From positions 1 to 45,216 of the forward strand of contig NZ_AWWI01000116.1 in assembly GCF_002760615.1 (NCBI RefSeq): DNA of 45,216 nt, in the 5' to 3' direction. Below are positions 5,109 to 28,474 of the stretch, piece by piece. Within the stretch, counting starts at the first letter, position 1, and the number at the start of each line of letters is the position of its first letter. Under the pieces are notes generated by a model, which saw only the letters and a list, made by a program, of their open reading frames with translations, had not been told where the DNA came from and did no database searches. The position numbers were made by a program, and so were the translations under genes. The stretch comes from Puniceibacterium antarcticum (GTDB lineage: Bacteria; Pseudomonadota; Alphaproteobacteria; Rhodobacterales; Rhodobacteraceae).

Positions 5109-6149
5109 TCAGACTGTGGCCTCCTTCGTCCATTGATAATCGGTTCCAGTCTTCCAGACCGTTAGCATCAGCACCGCGATCTTAGGTGCGGTTGCAACAG
5201 CGGCCCTTCGAAAGCCCCGGCGACCTGCCAGCCGAACCGCCCATGACTTCAAAGCCGAGAAGTGCTTCAACTGGCGGATCACGCAAGACGCGGCTTCGAA
5301 AAGCTACCCGCGCATGGCTGCATCGACGCATTTCGGCACGCGACCGGACCAATCCATTTCGCCGGATTGGTGCCGCCGAGGCGTCAGCCCCAGGAAGGCC
5401 CCAATATCCGAGGTTCTACTGAACCTGCCTGGGTCATCGACCAGGGCCACAAAACTCAACGAGACGATAGGCCCGCCCCCCGGCATCGTCATCAGGCGGC
5501 GGGCAACAGGGTGGCTTTTGGCCCTCGCCTTCAATGCCCGTTCAAGATCGGCAGCCGCCAGGCAAAGTGTGCTGTCGGCGGCAATGAATCCGTCCGCGAT
5601 GGTCCGCAATACGGGATCAGTCTCTCCTGCGGCGGCCAGCTGGTCATGGAAAGCCTGTCTTTGCTGGCCCTGACCGACGCCGGTCATGCGAATGCCAAAT
5701 GTCTTCAGGACACTGCGTATGTGCCCCTCAAGGTCTCTGCGCAACCGGATCAGGCGCTCGCGTGCTCCCACCAGGACGCGCAGGCGATCGGACTCTTGGC
5801 TTCGGATGTGGACCGGAGTGAACCATCCCGTCCGCGCGAGCCGAGCCAGACCTTCCGCGTCGGCGGCGTCGGACTTGTTGTGCCGGGCAGACAGGCTCGT
5901 GTGGGCCTTGCGTGCGTCGATACAGATTGCGGGCAATCCAAGATCGGCGAGCCCGCGCTGCAACCAGATCGACAGCTGGCCACTTTCATGTACGATCCGC
6001 TCGGGCGTCAGAGATCTGCTCTTCAGCCAGCCTGCAACCCCGTCCGGATCCGCCGGTGACACGCCACGCGCCACCATCTTCCCGTCTTCATCGACAACGC
6101 AGATCGAAACCTATTTGAGAGATATGTCGAGTCCGGCATCCTTCTTCAT
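5109..6149 (-). pseudogene. IS110-family transposase, inactivated by two in-frame TAG stops
   Basis: The frame from the ATG at 6149 to the TGA at 5109 (346 residues) reads as an IS110-family DEDD recombinase. It starts MKKDAGLDISLK, has the ARHNKSDAADAEGLARL acidic motif, and continues through the MPGGGPIVSLSF and GLTPRRHQSGE motifs of the C-terminal Tnp20 domain. It is broken by TAG at 6111-6113 (codon 13, probably once CAG) and by TAG at 5304-5306 (between MRG and LFEAAS, a place where relatives usually have Tyr). The reading frame is otherwise intact on both sides of each stop, so inactivation looks recent. IS110 transposases act with an RNA guide from the non-coding end of the element. 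Element ends are not resolvable by eye and are estimated near 4880 and 6330. Confidence 0.85.
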
Positions 6150-14123: not shown

Positions 14124-14915
14124 TTGCAGATCGACATGATGCCTACCGCCCGGCTGGTGCCCTACATCCGCAACGCCCGCACCCATTCCGCCGATCAGGT
14201 TGCCCAGATAGCGGCCTCGATGGCCGAGTTTGGTTTCACCAACCCGATCCTGATTGGCGAGGACGATGTGATCATCGCCGGGCACGGACGACTGATGGCG
14301 GCGCAGAGCCTCGGACTGACCGACGTGCCGGTGATCGTGCTCGACCATCTCTCCGAGGCCCAACGCCGGGCGCTCATCCTCGCCGACAACCGCATCGCGG
14401 AAAACGCCGGATGGGACAACGCTATGCTGGGCTCGGAACTAGCCGCGCTGCGCGACGAGAACTTCGATCTGGACATGATTGGCTTTGACGAGGCTGAACT
14501 GGATGAATTGCTGGCGGGGTTTGAATTTGGCGATGCAGGTGCGCTGGGTGGCGAGGGCCAGGACGGCAATGTCGGCGGGAACGACGCCCCATCGGCCGCA
14601 TCGTCGTCCGGCAGCCTCGCTGTCCGCTTTGGAATCCCGCCTTTCTCAATCCTTGATGCTCGCAAGGGCTGGTGGCAGGACCGCAAACGCGCCTGGTTGG
14701 ATCTCGGTATCCGCTCTGAATTGGGCCGTGGCGAAGGCGATCGCGCCTGCCCCGGCGGCAGTCCGATGCCGGGTAACGGGTCGCGCAAGAACTACAAGCC
14801 CGGCGCGGCCAAGGCGTTCGCCGACGGCGCGATCCTTGGCGGTGGCGGTCTTGCCGATAAGGTCGCCATGGCTGCCACCGCCCGCCGCCAGAAAACGGAG
14901 GCCGCACATGGCTAA
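14124..14915 (+). CDS. ParB/sulfiredoxin-like domain protein
   Basis: A 263-residue protein. Residues 5-100 match the ParB N-terminal domain (VPYIRNARTHSADQVAQIA, FGFTNPILIG, IIAGHGRLMAA with the GHGR signature, VPVIVLDHLSEAQRRALILA, DNRIAE). The rest is a glycine-rich, probably flexible region with basic patches. In phages this domain usually stands before a DNA methyltransferase, fused or adjacent; here the methyltransferase begins inside its last codons (overlap 14908-14915). It may recruit the methyltransferase to DNA or act as a CTP- or nucleotide-dependent switch. It is not a plasmid partition protein, as no ParA or centromere-binding half is present. Confidence 0.85.
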   Translation: MQIDMMPTARLVPYIRNARTHSADQVAQIAASMAEFGFTNPILIGEDDVIIAGHGRLMAAQSLGLTDVPVIVLDHLSEAQRRALILADNRIAENAGWDNAMLGSELAALRDENFDLDMIGFDEAELDELLAGFEFGDAGALGGEGQDGNVGGNDAPSAASSSGSLAVRFGIPPFSILDARKGWWQDRKRAWLDLGIRSELGRGEGDRACPGGSPMPGNGSRKNYKPGAAKAFADGAILGGGGLADKVAMAATARRQKTEAAHG

Positions 14916-15861
14916 ATCCCCGGCTCGCACCTTCGGCCAAGACCTGATGCGCGGCGAGCATGTGGTCGGCGGCGATAAGACCAACGGTGGCGTACTGATG
15001 CCGTCCCACACTTCTGGCGATCCCAGCTTCTATGCCAAAAAGCGCGCGAAGGAAGCCGAACTAGGCCACGAGCTGACCACCGAAGCCTTCCTTGCCGATC
15101 ACTATCAGGCCTCTGATGCGCCCGCAGCCTCTGGCACCTCGATCTTCGATCCTGTCCTCTGCGAAATCGCTTACCGCTGGTTCTGTCCACAGGGCGGCAC
15201 GGTCCTCGATCCCTTTGCAGGTGGTTCCGTCCGCGGCGTCGTCGCCTCGCAGCTTGGCCGGGCCTACGTCGGTATAGAACTCCGGGCCGAACAGGTCGCC
15301 GCCAATCAGGCACAGGCGGCGCTGGGCGCAGGCCCGGCCCCACAATGGATCACCGGTGACAGCCGCGACATCGCGACGTTGGCAAAGGACGTCGATGCCG
15401 ATCTGATATTCAGCTGCCCGCCGTATTGGAACCTTGAGGTCTATTCCGACGATCCGGCCGATCTGTCCACCCTCGGCAAAGATGCCTTCTTCGAGGCTTA
15501 CGCTCGGATCATCGCCGGGGCGGTGTCCCGCCTGCGCGACGATCGTTTCGCAGTTTGGGTGATCGGTGATGTGCGCGATGCGGGTGGGTTCTTCGTCAAC
15601 TTGCCGGGTCGGACAGTCGAAGCCATCGAGGCAGCCGGTGCCCGGTTCTACAACGATGCAATCCTCGTCACTGCCGTCGGATCGCTCCCCATCCGCGCCG
15701 GACGGCAATTCGAGGCCTCCCGCAAGCTGGGTCGGACTCATCAAAACGTGCTGGTGTTCTGTAAGGGCGACCCCAAGCGCGCCACCGAGGCGATCGGACA
15801 AGTGGAATTCGGCGAAATCGACGAGGCCAATGGCACCAGCGAAGAGGCCCCCCAAGAATGA
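14908..15861 (+). CDS. Phage DNA methyltransferase (amino-group type)
   Basis: A 317-residue protein from the ATG at 14908, which has GGAGG eight bases upstream; the longer frame from 14479 overlaps the ParB gene. The S-adenosylmethionine motif is DPFAGGSVRG (about residue 93) and the catalytic motif is SCPPYWN (about 168), so motif I precedes motif IV. That architecture fits N6-adenine or N4-cytosine methyltransferases; the CPPY core is slightly off the usual (N/D/S)PPY. No restriction endonuclease is nearby, so it is an orphan enzyme that probably protects phage DNA. It is translationally coupled to the ParB gene before it and to the PLP-fold gene after it (ATGA overlap at 15858-15861). Confidence 0.9.
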   Translation: MAKSPARTFGQDLMRGEHVVGGDKTNGGVLMPSHTSGDPSFYAKKRAKEAELGHELTTEAFLADHYQASDAPAASGTSIFDPVLCEIAYRWFCPQGGTVLDPFAGGSVRGVVASQLGRAYVGIELRAEQVAANQAQAALGAGPAPQWITGDSRDIATLAKDVDADLIFSCPPYWNLEVYSDDPADLSTLGKDAFFEAYARIIAGAVSRLRDDRFAVWVIGDVRDAGGFFVNLPGRTVEAIEAAGARFYNDAILVTAVGSLPIRAGRQFEASRKLGRTHQNVLVFCKGDPKRATEAIGQVEFGEIDEANGTSEEAPQE

Positions 15862-16562
15862 CCGCCCCGATTGTGCGAACCCATTCGGGGATCTGGGTGG
15901 TCCGGGACGATCTGCACCCCGGCGGCACCAAAGCCCGGTTCATCGGCAAAGTGTTCGATGGCGTGCGAGAAGCCGTCTATGCCAGCCCGCCCGAAGGCGG
16001 CGCACAAACCGCCTTGGCGCATGTCGCCCGGGCGCTGGGCAAGAAAGCGACGATCTTTGTCGCCCAGCGTGCAAAACCACACGCCCGGACGCTGGAAGCC
16101 GCCCGCTTTGGGGCGAAGGTGGTGCCAGTGTCGCCGGGATATCTCACCGTCGTGCAAAGCCGGGCCCGCCAGTATTGCCGTGATACCGGGGCCTCGCTAA
16201 TCCCATTCGGAGCGGATATCCCGGGCGGCATCGAGGCAATCGCCACAGCAGCGCTGGCAACCGGGCTTGAACCGGAGGAGGTTTGGTGCGCCGCAGGATC
16301 GGGCGTCCTGGCGCGCGGTTTGGCGTTGGCATGGCCGAAAGCCCGGCGGCATGTGGTGCAGATCGGGCGGGAGTTGGCGCCGAAGGACGTCGCTGGAGCC
16401 CGTATTCACGTCTATCCGCGGGCCTTTGGACAGGTGGCGCTTATCGGCGCACCCTTTCCGGCGGACCCGCATTATGATGCGAAGGCTTGGGAGTTATGTG
16501 TGGCAATGAGTGGGCCCGGGCGGATACTGTTTTGGAACGTTGCACCGTTGCCGCGAGGGTGA
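15858..16562 (+). CDS. Compact PLP-dependent fold-type II enzyme
   Basis: A 234-residue protein resembling the tryptophan synthase beta / cysteine synthase / ACC deaminase family. The Schiff-base lysine is Lys25 in HPGGTKARFI. Residues 43-70 (PPEGGAQTALAHVARALG, then KKATIFV) match the Ser/Asn-loop helix of the family, and AAGSG (145-149) matches the phosphate-binding glycine loop. It is about 100 residues shorter than typical members, so it is compact or reduced. Overlap with the methyltransferase gene shows it belongs to the same operon. PLP enzymes occur in phage thymidine hypermodification pathways, so it may supply or attach an amino-acid-derived group to DNA. The substrate and the link to the methyltransferase are inference. 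Confidence 0.75.
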   Translation: MTAPIVRTHSGIWVVRDDLHPGGTKARFIGKVFDGVREAVYASPPEGGAQTALAHVARALGKKATIFVAQRAKPHARTLEAARFGAKVVPVSPGYLTVVQSRARQYCRDTGASLIPFGADIPGGIEAIATAALATGLEPEEVWCAAGSGVLARGLALAWPKARRHVVQIGRELAPKDVAGARIHVYPRAFGQVALIGAPFPADPHYDAKAWELCVAMSGPGRILFWNVAPLPRG

Positions 16563-16790: not shown

Positions 16791-17843
16791 TTGGAACGAC
16801 GAGGTGTAATACTTGTTGAGAGTACCCATGATCTCCACCCGAGCAATCGTTGTGAGGCGGTAAAGTCTCGGGCCCTAGAGGTAATAAATTCTATACGTAA
16901 TGACCTTAAGCTAGCGGAAAAAGAGCTATCGTTCCAAATCCGTTCGCATGCTCGCTCTCAGAGGTCAGGTGTAAAGGTGTTGCGTAGTATTTACGACGGA
17001 AGCTCAGATGCCGATCAGGTCAGAGTCGTATTTTGTGACGAGCCACTTCACGATGCATTCGTACGGTCCTTTTTTCCCGGCAATAAGCTAATAATTGCGA
17101 TTGAGGAGTCCACTCATTCTCAGGGTATCTATAGTAGTGGTTCAAGTAATGGCTGCAAGATCCGAGTTGGACCGCGAAAAGCATCGAGAATAATTGAAGA
17201 TGTGTTTATTGACATTTTCATTGGGCGATGGATGGCAAATACTCCTGTACTCGAAGGATTGATCAAACAACATGGCCATGATGCTCTTTACAAAGCGAAG
17301 GCCAGATACTTCCAATCCAATGCACGAAAATCCTGGATGTCGTTGATCAACAAGGAAGCTGGATACGCCCCACTTTCCGCTTTAAATGATGTCGATGACG
17401 ATGACATAAAAGGCAGGGCCCAACAAACAATATTTCAATGGGCCACCTTCGTCGACAGCTTGACGGCCAAATCTTTAGGATCAGGTGCTGGCGTATCAAT
17501 TAAGCCTACCAATAGCAGCATTGAGAAACTTCCAAAGCTTGGCGGCCAGCTTCCCGCACGCTCAATAAGACGTACCGCCAGCAAACTGCCTGATGGGTTA
17601 TACTTGATTGCTATCCTGAGAAAGTCGAGCACCGCTCGAAAGAACCCAAAGACTAAAAATAGAATACTCTCAATTTTTGGAAAAAATGCGCGAGTTAATA
17701 GTTTTAGAATTTTGTCAGCAACAGATTTCTCATCACAAAAGAATGTGGTTGAAGATTTAATCAGGTCACGATTTGCAGTGGGGCTCAATATCGAAATTAT
17801 GAACGGCATTCCCACTATTAGCGGTATTTTAGAAGGAGATTAA
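16791..17843 (+). CDS. Unknown cargo protein upstream of cyclase-like gene
   Basis: A 350-residue protein starting at TTG (16791) behind a GAGGTG ribosome-binding site. I recognise no domain. The N-terminal third is mixed alpha/beta, an acidic stretch NDVDDDDIKG lies near residue 200, and the C-terminal third is strongly basic (LRKSSTARKNPKTKNRI). There is no signal peptide or membrane segment. It is AT-richer than the phage genes around it and is separated by two bases from the cyclase-like gene, with which it must form an operon. A 230-base non-coding stretch (16563-16790) precedes it, where I see only a likely promoter region. As the partner of a signalling-like enzyme it could be an effector or sensor; this is a guess from context. 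Confidence 0.7.
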   Translation: MERRGVILVESTHDLHPSNRCEAVKSRALEVINSIRNDLKLAEKELSFQIRSHARSQRSGVKVLRSIYDGSSDADQVRVVFCDEPLHDAFVRSFFPGNKLIIAIEESTHSQGIYSSGSSNGCKIRVGPRKASRIIEDVFIDIFIGRWMANTPVLEGLIKQHGHDALYKAKARYFQSNARKSWMSLINKEAGYAPLSALNDVDDDDIKGRAQQTIFQWATFVDSLTAKSLGSGAGVSIKPTNSSIEKLPKLGGQLPARSIRRTASKLPDGLYLIAILRKSSTARKNPKTKNRILSIFGKNARVNSFRILSATDFSSQKNVVEDLIRSRFAVGLNIEIMNGIPTISGILEGD

Positions 17844-17845
17844 GG

Positions 17846-18850
17846 ATGAGCTGGTGTGGCTACATAGACATCTTGGGGACCCGGGAGGCAGCCGCCTCTG
17901 GGCTCAGCGATGTAAGAGCACACCTTGATGATTTTCACTCCGCACTTTTTGATCACTTCGACTCTTTCCAGAACGGCCAATGCATTGCTGCTAGTGATGG
18001 TGCATTTTTTGAAGCGGAGGGAATCGACGACTTTTACGATTTCTATCGCAGAGTCCGAAATACTCTATTCGAAAGAGGAATATTTTTTAAATGCTCCTTT
18101 GTTCCGGGAAGGATAAGGTTCGAAGAGAGACAGAAAACAAAACCAGACGGAAGCGTCGCTTTTAAGTCACTTGAGTTTTCTGATCAAGCAACTGCTGCAT
18201 TCCAAGTGGAAAGCGCACTCAAAGGAATAGGGTGCTGGGTAAAAGTCAAGGACAACCTGCCCAAAAATACCATCACCAACTTCATGGTTGTCAAAGCATC
18301 TGGAAAATTTAGCGTGGAGAAATTCGAAGACTTTGCATTTTCGAAGTTTGAGGTTGGATCAGATGACGATATTTTTGCACCTGCTTGGCCCCATGAAGCG
18401 AGATTGATAGATTCAATCTTTTATCACTGCCATTACTCGATAATAAATTCTGACAATTTTTCGATGAAGTACCTGCCTCTTTTTGTAAATGCAGTCCGGT
18501 CATCAGATCTCCGTGACATTAGATTCACCTCCGGGAAATGGGAGCGTGCGCCATACATTGTGCATCGCCTCGTCGGCTCCAAGGCATCTCTTGCTGCAAT
18601 TTCCAAGGTTCCAGGCTTAAGATACTTATTACTTGCTCTTTACGATGAGTATTTCTCACAAAACAAAGGTGAATTTGAAGAGGGCGCGGAAGGTCAAATA
18701 GTACGACTACTGACATCAAGAAATGATTGCACAACAAATTTAAACTCTGTACCTGATTTCGTCCTAAAGCCGCGTGCTCGCGCCCATCTTATGGAAGAAA
18801 TCTCGAAGTCCAGAGGGATTCGAAAGACCAGGCCCAGGAGTGGGGCCTAG
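17846..18850 (+). CDS. Divergent class III nucleotide-cyclase-like protein
   Basis: A 334-residue protein. Residues 4-95 follow the beta-alpha-alpha-beta-beta layout of class III cyclases: strand CGYIDILGTR with Asp8 where the first metal ligand lies, the hairpin CIAASDGAFFEAE with Asp51 as second metal ligand, a helix (DDFYDFYRRVRNTLF), and a strand RGIFFKCSFVPGR like the RIGIxxG strand. The remaining 230 residues are unrecognised. Cyclase domains of this sort define the Pycsar anti-phage systems (cCMP/cUMP), but here no TIR or membrane effector accompanies it, only the unknown gene upstream. Its AT-rich composition and position between early and packaging genes mark it as cargo. The assignment rests on motif layout and could be wrong. 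Confidence 0.5.
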   Translation: MSWCGYIDILGTREAAASGLSDVRAHLDDFHSALFDHFDSFQNGQCIAASDGAFFEAEGIDDFYDFYRRVRNTLFERGIFFKCSFVPGRIRFEERQKTKPDGSVAFKSLEFSDQATAAFQVESALKGIGCWVKVKDNLPKNTITNFMVVKASGKFSVEKFEDFAFSKFEVGSDDDIFAPAWPHEARLIDSIFYHCHYSIINSDNFSMKYLPLFVNAVRSSDLRDIRFTSGKWERAPYIVHRLVGSKASLAAISKVPGLRYLLLALYDEYFSQNKGEFEEGAEGQIVRLLTSRNDCTTNLNSVPDFVLKPRARAHLMEEISKSRGIRKTRPRSGA

Positions 18851-27396: not shown

Positions 27397-27492
27397 ATGA
27401 ACAGTCGCAGCGGTAGCACGCGCGTTATCCGCGACTACCGCAAGCCGTTTACATCAAACAAAACTGCCGTGCCTAAACTTCAATCGCTTTAG
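27397..27492 (+). pseudogene. 31-residue ORF cut off at the cargo junction
   Basis: A strong ribosome-binding site (AAGGAGGG, 27385-27392) precedes an ATG at 27397. The frame starts MNSRSGSTRVIRDYRKPF and then runs into the 3' end of the RES gene, stopping at 27492. The good start signal with a nonsense-like tail suggests the 5' end of a late phage gene that was truncated when the RES cargo came in. It could also be a genuine mini-gene. Confidence 0.5.
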
Positions 27493-28474
27493 ACTGTTCG
27501 CCGTCGAAAATACACAGGCTAAGCAGGCGCGAACGCCTTCCAATCGAGAATTCCGCATTTAGTACAACAAGGTTGTACGCTTGCGCTGATGTTCGTGTTG
27601 AAGGGTATTGGATGGCGTCGAATCCAGCCGATCGGGCGCAGTCCGCAACAAATCTTGAAAACACATATGCTGGCTTTTGATACCCCGTTCCTTCCTGAGG
27701 CGTGCTGAGGAGCGCAGAAAACGCCAATGCGTTCAACAAGTCTGATTGATCTTTATGGCTATCGTACGGGTTTGTGAGGTCTAAAACCTTTAGTTCACCA
27801 TCCAAAGCTATTTCAGCAATTGCGCAATGAGCTCCTCTCAGCTCATGAAAGCAGGTTCCCTTACTATCCCCAAGGTAAAGGACCGGCTGCCCTGCGTGGT
27901 TGTATCGGCCTTCGCCGACGAACCTGGGATCTGCAAAGTCGAACTGATTTGCAGATATTTCTTTCAGGCCTTGCAGGCCACGTGCTCGGAACAAGTTCAA
28001 TGGTACTGTCGTAGCGTTGGTCGTTTGAGAAAGCCCTTCTAAGGTCTTGAGGACTGTTTGAGCAAACTCGTTCTTCAACAATAAAAATGGCGTCTCATTT
28101 GCGATAGTGCTGATAGCCACGATGTGTTCCTCGAAACCCTTTGGAACATCAAATGGCAGCTCATAAGGGTAGAGCGTATGGCCCAACTTTTCACCACATC
28201 TTGGACAGTCCATATTTGTCAATAAGCGCTCGAACTGCTCCCTCGAGTAAAAGGCGTTGATCCGGGAGCCATCGTAGAAAGTATCAAGCTGAATCTGGTT
28301 GCGCTGAAATTCTTCAGATTCGGCCGAATATGCTGTCGGCCAAATCTGTAGGAATTTCTTATAACACCGGTCGCAACACGCGATGTCCGCCGAATACCAA
28401 GAATCGAGCTCTTGAAGAAAAACGTCTTCGAAGGCGGCCTCGTCATGCGGGTGAGTTGGGAGAGATGAGTTCAA
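27473..28474 (-). CDS. RES-domain protein with N-terminal zinc-binding-like region
   Basis: A 333-residue protein starting at TTG (28474) behind AGGTGG. The N-terminal region has two cysteine pairs (Cys34-Cys37 in CCDRC, and Cys90-Cys93 in CPRC) that could bind zinc. Residues 160-305 match the RES domain: LFRAR (Arg163/Arg165), EGRYNHAGQPVLYLGDS, CFHELRG with Glu211, and a late serine in YPSTR (Ser292). RES toxins break down NAD+. Here no Xre-type antitoxin gene is adjacent, and the gene lies antisense to the late operon between neck and tail genes. Its AT-rich composition marks it as cargo. It may be a superinfection-exclusion or abortive-infection protein; activity and trigger are unknown. 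Confidence 0.8.
   Translation of the reverse strand: MNSSLPTHPHDEAAFEDVFLQELDSWYSADIACCDRCYKKFLQIWPTAYSAESEEFQRNQIQLDTFYDGSRINAFYSREQFERLLTNMDCPRCGEKLGHTLYPYELPFDVPKGFEEHIVAISTIANETPFLLLKNEFAQTVLKTLEGLSQTTNATTVPLNLFRARGLQGLKEISANQFDFADPRFVGEGRYNHAGQPVLYLGDSKGTCFHELRGAHCAIAEIALDGELKVLDLTNPYDSHKDQSDLLNALAFSALLSTPQEGTGYQKPAYVFSRFVADCARSAGFDAIQYPSTRTSAQAYNLVVLNAEFSIGRRSRLLSLCIFDGEQSKAIEV

Follow-up and report, generated by a model that had tools for sequence, protein, structure and literature searches.

The window analysed here is a 45,216-nucleotide stretch of the Puniceibacterium antarcticum genome (contig NZ_AWWI01000116.1, positions 1 to 45,216). Within an otherwise ordinary tailed prophage it carries three consecutive genes, encoding a ParB-like protein, an S-adenosylmethionine (SAM)-dependent amino-type transferase (hereafter MTase) and a pyridoxal phosphate (PLP) enzyme of fold type II. 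The initial annotation had proposed that these genes form a coupled unit that could place an amino-acid-derived group on phage DNA. An S-adenosylmethionine decarboxylase (SpeD) gene occupies the place of the PLP gene in some relatives, a hint that the DNA of these viruses may bear a SAM-derived amine and not a methyl group. The features of the module are the following.

14124 to 14915, forward strand: ParB-like protein, 263 amino acids, TTG start (Pfam ParB_N; PHROGs phrog_15396, 5.8e-94)
14625 to 14729, forward strand: conserved linker stretch RFGIPPFS..GR, ParB residues 168-202, with a similar stretch in fused relatives
14908 to 15861, forward strand: SAM-dependent amino-type transferase (MTase), 317 amino acids (Pfam N6_N4_Mtase; PHROGs phrog_12517, 6.6e-130)
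15208 to 15237, forward strand: MTase motif I, DPFAGGSVRG, residues 101-110, the R-type signature
15415 to 15426, forward strand: MTase motif IV, CPPY, residues 170-173
15858 to 16562, forward strand: fold-type II PLP enzyme, 234 amino acids, phrog_7093, proposed decarboxylase (Pfam PALP, 4.9e-12)
15930 to 15932, forward strand: Lys25 in GGTKAR, proposed Schiff-base lysine, invariant in 36/36 alignment rows
16296 to 16304, forward strand: GSG loop, residues 147-149, proposed phosphate-binding loop, invariant in 36/36 alignment rows
16455 to 16538, forward strand: C-terminal FP..PHYDAKAW...FWN motif, residues 200-227, common to the PLP enzyme of Pseudomonas phage M6

The open reading frame (ORF) calls in the window bear out the overlap of the three genes by start and stop codons: the start of the MTase ORF overlaps the end of the ParB-like ORF by 8 bp (ATGGCTAA), and the start of the PLP ORF overlaps the end of the MTase ORF by 4 bp (ATGA). 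The domains and residues first read from the sequence, namely the ParB domain, the CPPY of the amino-type MTase, Lys25 in GGTKAR and the GSG loop, also agree with the coordinates and the Pfam matches. Pairwise comparison of the window with five relatives gave ratios of non-synonymous to synonymous substitution rates (dN/dS) of 0.02-0.27 across the three genes, which are thus under purifying selection. A second copy of the module lies on another contig of the same genome (C59, L082), with a PLP enzyme 92% identical and the same MTase and ParB genes, and that copy is also found as an IMG/VR viral contig (L002). The ParB_N match (1.1e-5) reached 25.8 bits against a cut-off of 26.3 and is slightly below threshold. 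In the C-terminal part of the ParB-like protein sits the stretch RFGIPPFSILDARKGWWQDRKRAWLDLGIRSELGR, and a similar stretch was found between the ParB and MTase parts of the single-ORF relatives P0001, P0006, P0008, P0010 and P0012. The ParB-DNA methyltransferase fusions of phrog_498 match the window ParB and MTase parts; their profile, 633 positions long, could not accommodate a PLP domain in its MTase-matching stretch (299 positions for 272 residues).

DNA amino-methyltransferases acting on N6 of adenine or N4 of cytosine conventionally carry a motif IV of the form (D/N/S)PP(Y/F), together with a SAM-binding motif I. Both motifs of the window MTase are atypical (GGSVRG in motif I and CPPY in motif IV), and the N6_N4_Mtase match (5.8e-11) covers only 40 residues around motif I. 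The order of the motifs, I before IV, is circularly permuted with respect to CcrM and to the N4-cytosine MTases of the PDB. The closest PDB sequence was 2zie (6.2e-15). The structure model had a mean predicted local distance difference test score (pLDDT) of 76.7, the N-terminal part being unsure.

The model of the PLP enzyme was confident (mean pLDDT 93.9), and its nearest solved folds were D-cysteine desulfhydrase (query-based TM-score, TMq, 0.75, with 20% identity), threonine deaminase and a homologue of 1-aminocyclopropane-1-carboxylate (ACC) deaminase. The model thus predicts a fold-type II enzyme with a conserved lysine, as in ACC deaminase and D-cysteine desulfhydrase, that would bind the cofactor; the initial annotation had named loss of the PLP-binding residues in homologues as evidence that would count against it, and Lys25 and the GSG loop are kept throughout the alignment. 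In ACC deaminase and D-cysteine desulfhydrase an SNH stretch after the lysine has a role in the enzyme; the PLP profile has eggaqt opposite HSNHAF of 1j0a and QSNHVR of 4d8t. The window enzyme, although of the same fold, also has about 90 residues fewer than the 324-residue chain of D-cysteine desulfhydrase. The PHROG label of phrog_7093 is 'threonine dehydratase'. An ordinary serine/threonine dehydratase was considered and rejected, since NF006094 scored 29 bits against a cut-off of 331, and an NCBIfam scan of the enzyme reached no family cut-off.

Along its length the PLP enzyme is homologous to that of phage M6 (probability 98.2, E 5.7e-14, 218 columns), with which it shares the C-terminal FP...YD.KAW...FWN. 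The M6 enzyme is reportedly a decarboxylase whose substrate is an amino acid assembled on thymidine (Lee et al. 2021); no source for this activity was found in the literature searched. The thymidine of M6 is hypermodified and the M6-like cassette includes the PLP enzyme (PMC9476957, PMC6449724). DNA is the presumed target both in the M6/SN1 cassette, which yields 5-NedU, and in the window. That cassette, however, has a hydroxymethylase, a kinase, aGPT-PPlases and a radical SAM (rSAM) enzyme (PMC9476957), and the window has an amino-MTase and a ParB-like protein instead. This comparison bears on the possibility that the module acts on 5-hydroxymethyluracil-derived thymidine as in M6, a route that the homology of the PLP enzymes would favour. 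None of an M6-type hydroxymethylase, 5-hydroxymethyldeoxyuridine (5hmdU) kinase, aGPT-PPlase or rSAM enzyme was named in the Pfam and PHROGs scans of the window, in which several ORFs had no match and from which many small ORFs were left out, and M6 was absent from the 23 phage records matching this MTase. An M6-like pathway in the window was therefore rejected, and we regard the thymidine route as extremely improbable. Of the link to thymidine hypermodification that had first been drawn, the relationship of the PLP enzyme is supported and the thymidine route is not.

The PLP gene and the MTase gene travel together. The search for partners covered the fetched flanks, mostly 3-6 kb. A query of IMG/VR with the PLP protein yielded 148 relatives, and we retained the 80 best, which include the contig of the window; 78 of these 80 loci had the MTase, and in the two that did not (L014, L053) the PLP gene stood at a contig end. 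Searching a genome collection with the PLP alignment returned 38 loci, many from Rhodobacterales and Rhizobiales, with an MTase match in 28; eight of the ten others were partial or contig-end PLP matches. The remaining two, L295:3839-4678 from a Taylorbacteria genome and L296:3956-4678 from a Nomurabacteria genome, are PLP relatives about 30% identical and adjoin a cupin-looking protein. The survey of gene order that the initial annotation had recommended, covering the MTase-query loci and the opened phage records, placed the PLP match downstream of the MTase in 71 cases, upstream in 4, on the opposite strand in 2 and within the same ORF in 4. In four sequences, those of the Erythrobacter phages ZS04 and R6L, contig L087 and Pseudanabaena phage Pam4, a single long chain with a ParB part has the PLP domain set inside its MTase region, after motif I and ahead of motif IV, and in L137 the domain is joined behind the MTase within one ORF; a same-frame match in L290 had only partial domains and was left out of the fusion count. 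Fusions in such differing layouts are otherwise hard to explain and argue for a joint function, in agreement with the coupling first proposed.

Croceibacter phage P2559S and Pseudomonas phage ZRG1 have a SpeD gene, and not a PLP gene, overlapping the end of their ParB-MTase gene. Using both ParB-MTases as query we obtained 264 relatives and kept the best 80, of which 73 had SpeD and none had PLP. The 75 SpeDs compared for position all lay downstream of the MTase on the same strand, and in 73/75 the SpeD domain match began close to where the MTase ORF ends, at most 64 bp before that point or 27 bp after it. The Ser, His, Pro and downstream Cys of the active site were kept in 77/77 SpeDs, a set that includes two away from this MTase, and the Pro marks true AdoMet decarboxylases (PMC10407285). 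That of P2559S is such an enzyme, since a speD-deleted E. coli regained spermidine with it (PMC9992855). The reciprocal search, with the P2559S SpeD as query, involved no selection on motif I; it found 87 relatives, 80 of them kept and several contigs recurring from the P2559S/ZRG1 MTase set, and the MTase was present in 72/80 loci, 70 with a readable motif I. The ZRG1 SpeD matched 146 of 50,697 phage records, mostly cyanophages, and the window PLP enzyme matched 43. Three SpeD loci lacking the MTase (L401, L407, L425) had another ORF that by eye looked like a decarboxylase of the SpeD kind, followed by SpeD, and are perhaps a polyamine pathway. An AdoMet_dc profile had no match in the host genome (the control was positive in 8/14 known genomes), so the phage could not rely on decarboxylated SAM (dcSAM) from that enzyme.

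We grouped the MTases by motif I into an R-type GG..R (GGSVRG), a D-type GD..F (GD[TS]VFG) and an EQTK-type. Among 258 MTase-query loci and opened phage records with enough of the domain, the R-type occurred with PLP in 78 and alone in 93, and the D-type with SpeD in 75 and alone in 7; two EQTK-type loci had no partner, and three with an unresolved motif comprised one with PLP and two with none. The P2559S/ZRG1 set in this sample was partly chosen by motif, since its query patterns included FD[TC]FAGD. After reduction at 90% identity the 158 remaining loci comprised 34 R-type with PLP, 73 R-type alone, 44 D-type with SpeD, 3 D-type alone, 2 EQTK-type and 2 unresolved. There was no R/D crossing between motif class and partner (Fisher 7e-23 at 90%), a value that does not count independent events, because the D/SpeD rows form one clade (Shimodaira-Hasegawa-like approximate likelihood ratio, SH-aLRT, 98) in a quick tree of 73 rows from which the motif I columns were left out. 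For the same reason, there being no independent pairs, independent origins of SpeD were discarded as evidence; the PLP label requires 11 changes among the tree rows.

Queries that do not select motif I gave the same association. Among the SpeD-query loci position 106 was Asp in 70/70 readable motifs and position 109 was Phe in 69 and Ile in 1, with no R-type, and among the PLP-query loci (best 80 of 148) all 70 readable motifs were GSVR. Several positions are fixed for different residues in R- and D-type MTases, among them 106 and 109, on which the classes are defined, and 120, just beyond motif I, whereas no column told partnerless R-type MTases apart from PLP-linked ones (best 0.53 of 0.91 bits). 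A changed motif I with SpeD, and not with PLP, would be expected if the donor is the substrate of SpeD and the product that of PLP: with SpeD acting before transfer the donor site would change, and with PLP acting after it the MTase need not.

These observations bear on two other accounts of the partner enzymes. The PLP enzyme might itself be a SAM decarboxylase making dcSAM, with the MTase transferring aminopropyl as in the SpeD branch; it does take the SpeD slot, and in a host genome with no AdoMet_dc match. Its MTases, however, keep the R-type motif of partnerless ones, with no fixed difference from them, and none of the PLP-linked MTases has a D-type motif; this role is thus disfavoured, and we consider it very unlikely. 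Alternatively, SpeD and PLP might deplete cellular SAM against host restriction or methylation, in the manner of phage SAM lyases, with the MTase marking the DNA of the phage. Phage enzymes that degrade SAM are known (PMC7877911), yet depletion would starve the R-type MTase too and leaves the domain insertion and the motif change unexplained, so that we hold it to be highly improbable.

How often a partner is present depends on the part of the tree. Queries with window-like MTases found PLP in 67/80 and no partner in 13/80, Vincenzo-like queries found PLP in 1/5, mid-tree queries found PLP in 8/80 and no partner in 72/80, and the opened phage records (n=15, part of all matching records) had PLP in 5, SpeD in 2 and neither in 8. 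The initial annotation had named absence of the PLP gene from most ParB-methyltransferase loci as evidence against its idea, and this does count against it in part, as PLP is present in 34/107 R-type MTases at 90%. Another account is that the MTase makes ordinary N6-methyladenine (m6A) or N4-methylcytosine (m4C), PLP and SpeD being metabolic add-ons of polyamine or amino-acid metabolism that do not touch DNA. In its favour, the R-type MTases sampled mostly stand alone (73/107 at 90%), the closest sequences of solved structure are DNA amino-MTases, and SpeDs of phages have been described as genes of polyamine metabolism (PMC9992855). It is harder to reconcile with a PLP domain inserted into the MTase itself, with PLP or SpeD directly at the MTase gene, with a motif I that follows the partner and with the M6 relative of the PLP enzyme belonging to a DNA-hypermodification cassette (PMC9476957). 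Furthermore, no other enzyme recurred as often as PLP or SpeD beside partnerless MTases (80 loci at 90%, clusters sorted by eye). On balance we judge ordinary methylation unlikely.

A PLP enzyme of fold type II needs an amino-acid-like substrate, and dcSAM, the product of SpeD, is known to serve as a donor of aminopropyl. Both partners make sense together if what the MTase transfers is the amino-acid arm of SAM, in the form of 3-amino-3-carboxypropyl (acp) for the R-type and of aminopropyl for the D-type, and the presence of a SpeD clade in the same slot points to that arm as the source of the group. We propose, with a probability of roughly 0.45, that the module is a phage DNA base-hypermodification unit in which the acp or aminopropyl part of SAM is moved to a DNA base, the PLP enzyme decarboxylating after transfer. 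The ParB-like part would guide or load the enzyme on DNA; the MTase would transfer the acp arm, and not methyl, to an exocyclic amino group, presumably adenine N6 or cytosine N4; and the PLP enzyme would then decarboxylate the base-linked amino acid, leaving 3-aminopropyl-modified DNA. In the SpeD relatives SAM would be decarboxylated first and the aminopropyl group transferred from dcSAM, giving the same product. Tentatively, and at less than even odds, we therefore envisage one widespread phage family with two routes to aminopropylated DNA, transfer followed by PLP decarboxylation, as in the window, or SpeD followed by transfer.

A variant of this scheme retains attachment of the acp arm by the MTase and has the PLP enzyme eliminate, deaminate or substitute instead of decarboxylating, giving another final group. 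The closeness of its fold to D-cysteine desulfhydrase, ACC deaminase and threonine deaminase speaks for the variant; the SNH of the first two is not kept, and the exchange with SpeD suggests that the carboxylate is lost, which makes the variant quite unlikely in our view.

Several points weigh against aminopropylation by transfer and decarboxylation. Fold-type II enzymes mostly eliminate or deaminate, and decarboxylation by the PLP enzyme is argued by analogy with M6. By sequence the nearest PDB relatives of the MTase, 2zie at the top, are DNA amino-MTases, its model matches only generic SAM-MTases (TMq ~0.4), and CPPY is an unusual motif IV. Arg109 may meet the carboxylate of SAM and Asp106 the amine of dcSAM, a pairing for which we found no support: we take Asp106 to parallel the GGGDGG loop of spermidine synthases, and these were absent from the 16 PDB sequences found up to E 1 with a D-type MTase profile. 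The low PLP frequency among mid-tree MTases and the 73/107 partnerless R-types fit ordinary methylation equally well, and if those partnerless enzymes make plain m6A or m4C the PLP enzyme needs another substrate. The ParB-MTase of L088 is close to the fused Erythrobacter protein and has no PLP, so the PLP gene is dispensable, and L295 and L296, from candidate-phyla genomes, hold the PLP gene with no MTase in the locus. The confinement of SpeD to a single clade and of the partner search to fetched flanks count on the same side.

PLP enzymes in phage DNA hypermodification, ParB-MTase fusions, phage MTases using altered SAM and phage SpeDs are each known already; what is new is the occurrence of PLP or SpeD at one kind of ParB-MTase, with motif I following the partner. 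The phage CmoX carboxymethylcytosine system offers a parallel: its enzyme is related to DNA MTases and works with an altered SAM (Cx-SAM), and many contigs also have CmoA or a ParBc protein (PMC12783734). CmoX is, however, a C5-cytosine enzyme with SPPC, and the window MTase is of the amino type, with CPPY and a PLP or SpeD partner. In the study of phage AdoMet decarboxylases by Li et al. (2023, PMC9992855), the P2559S SpeD that was tested is the product of the gene overlapping a D-type ParB-MTase; it is reported there as polyamine metabolism, and the main text has no mention of ParB, methyltransferase, methylase, DNA modification or hypermodif. The combination of PLP or SpeD with a ParB-MTase was not found among the results listed by the literature searches, whose coverage left out preprints and many journals. 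No paper joined ParB, adenosylmethionine decarboxylase, methyltransferase and phage, and among the titles listed for acp or aminopropyl with phage DNA none dealt with this subject, in a search that did not extend to preprints and most subscription papers.

We know of no earlier DNA acp or aminopropyl transferase, and this one, if the proposal is right, would be the first. Phage DNA would then carry a positively charged amine from the SAM side chain, made by enzymes that databases label as methyltransferases. Such a role would explain a PLP enzyme in the phage of a host with no AdoMet_dc match and would lead some phage SpeD genes to be re-read. It could be tested by liquid chromatography-mass spectrometry (LC-MS) in the reported phages P2559S, ZRG1, Vincenzo and Mae-JY30.

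Beside the 80 partnerless MTases (90%), the clusters present in at least three loci looked, by eye, like terminase genes, ParB, antisense frames and small unknown ORFs. A P-loop kinase-like ORF stood there in 3/80 loci, including L169:2452-3204, and is annotated as a polynucleotide kinase in prophiGD43A-5. A second small SAM-MTase-like protein follows some PLP-less ParB-MTases (L088:5628-6392, L090:2022-2696, L165:4826-5467) and is perhaps another tailoring step. The third motif I class, DPFGGEQTKG, belongs to MTases whose gene is overlapped by that of a small PTGSGET-loop protein (L259:4085-4606, L171:850-1404), which matched the PLP profile weakly (45 columns, probability 23.5).

The prophage around the module has integrase, portal, capsid-protease, tape-measure and tail genes. 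On the 5' side of the module are a replication-initiation-like gene and a DUF6362 gene (Pfam, PHROGs), and on the 3' side two unmatched ORFs and one minus-strand ORF precede the terminase genes. The two adjacent ORFs in this module-to-terminase interval (16791-17843, forward strand, 350 amino acids, and 17846-18850, forward strand, 334 amino acids) had no Pfam, PHROGs or PADLOC match and are a possible moron or defence pair. Amid the head and tail genes lies a gene for a RES-domain protein (27476-28474, reverse strand, PF08808), a domain known in toxin-antitoxin pairs, and upstream of the integrase there is an IS110-type transposase gene or fragment of 257 amino acids (5307-6077, reverse strand).

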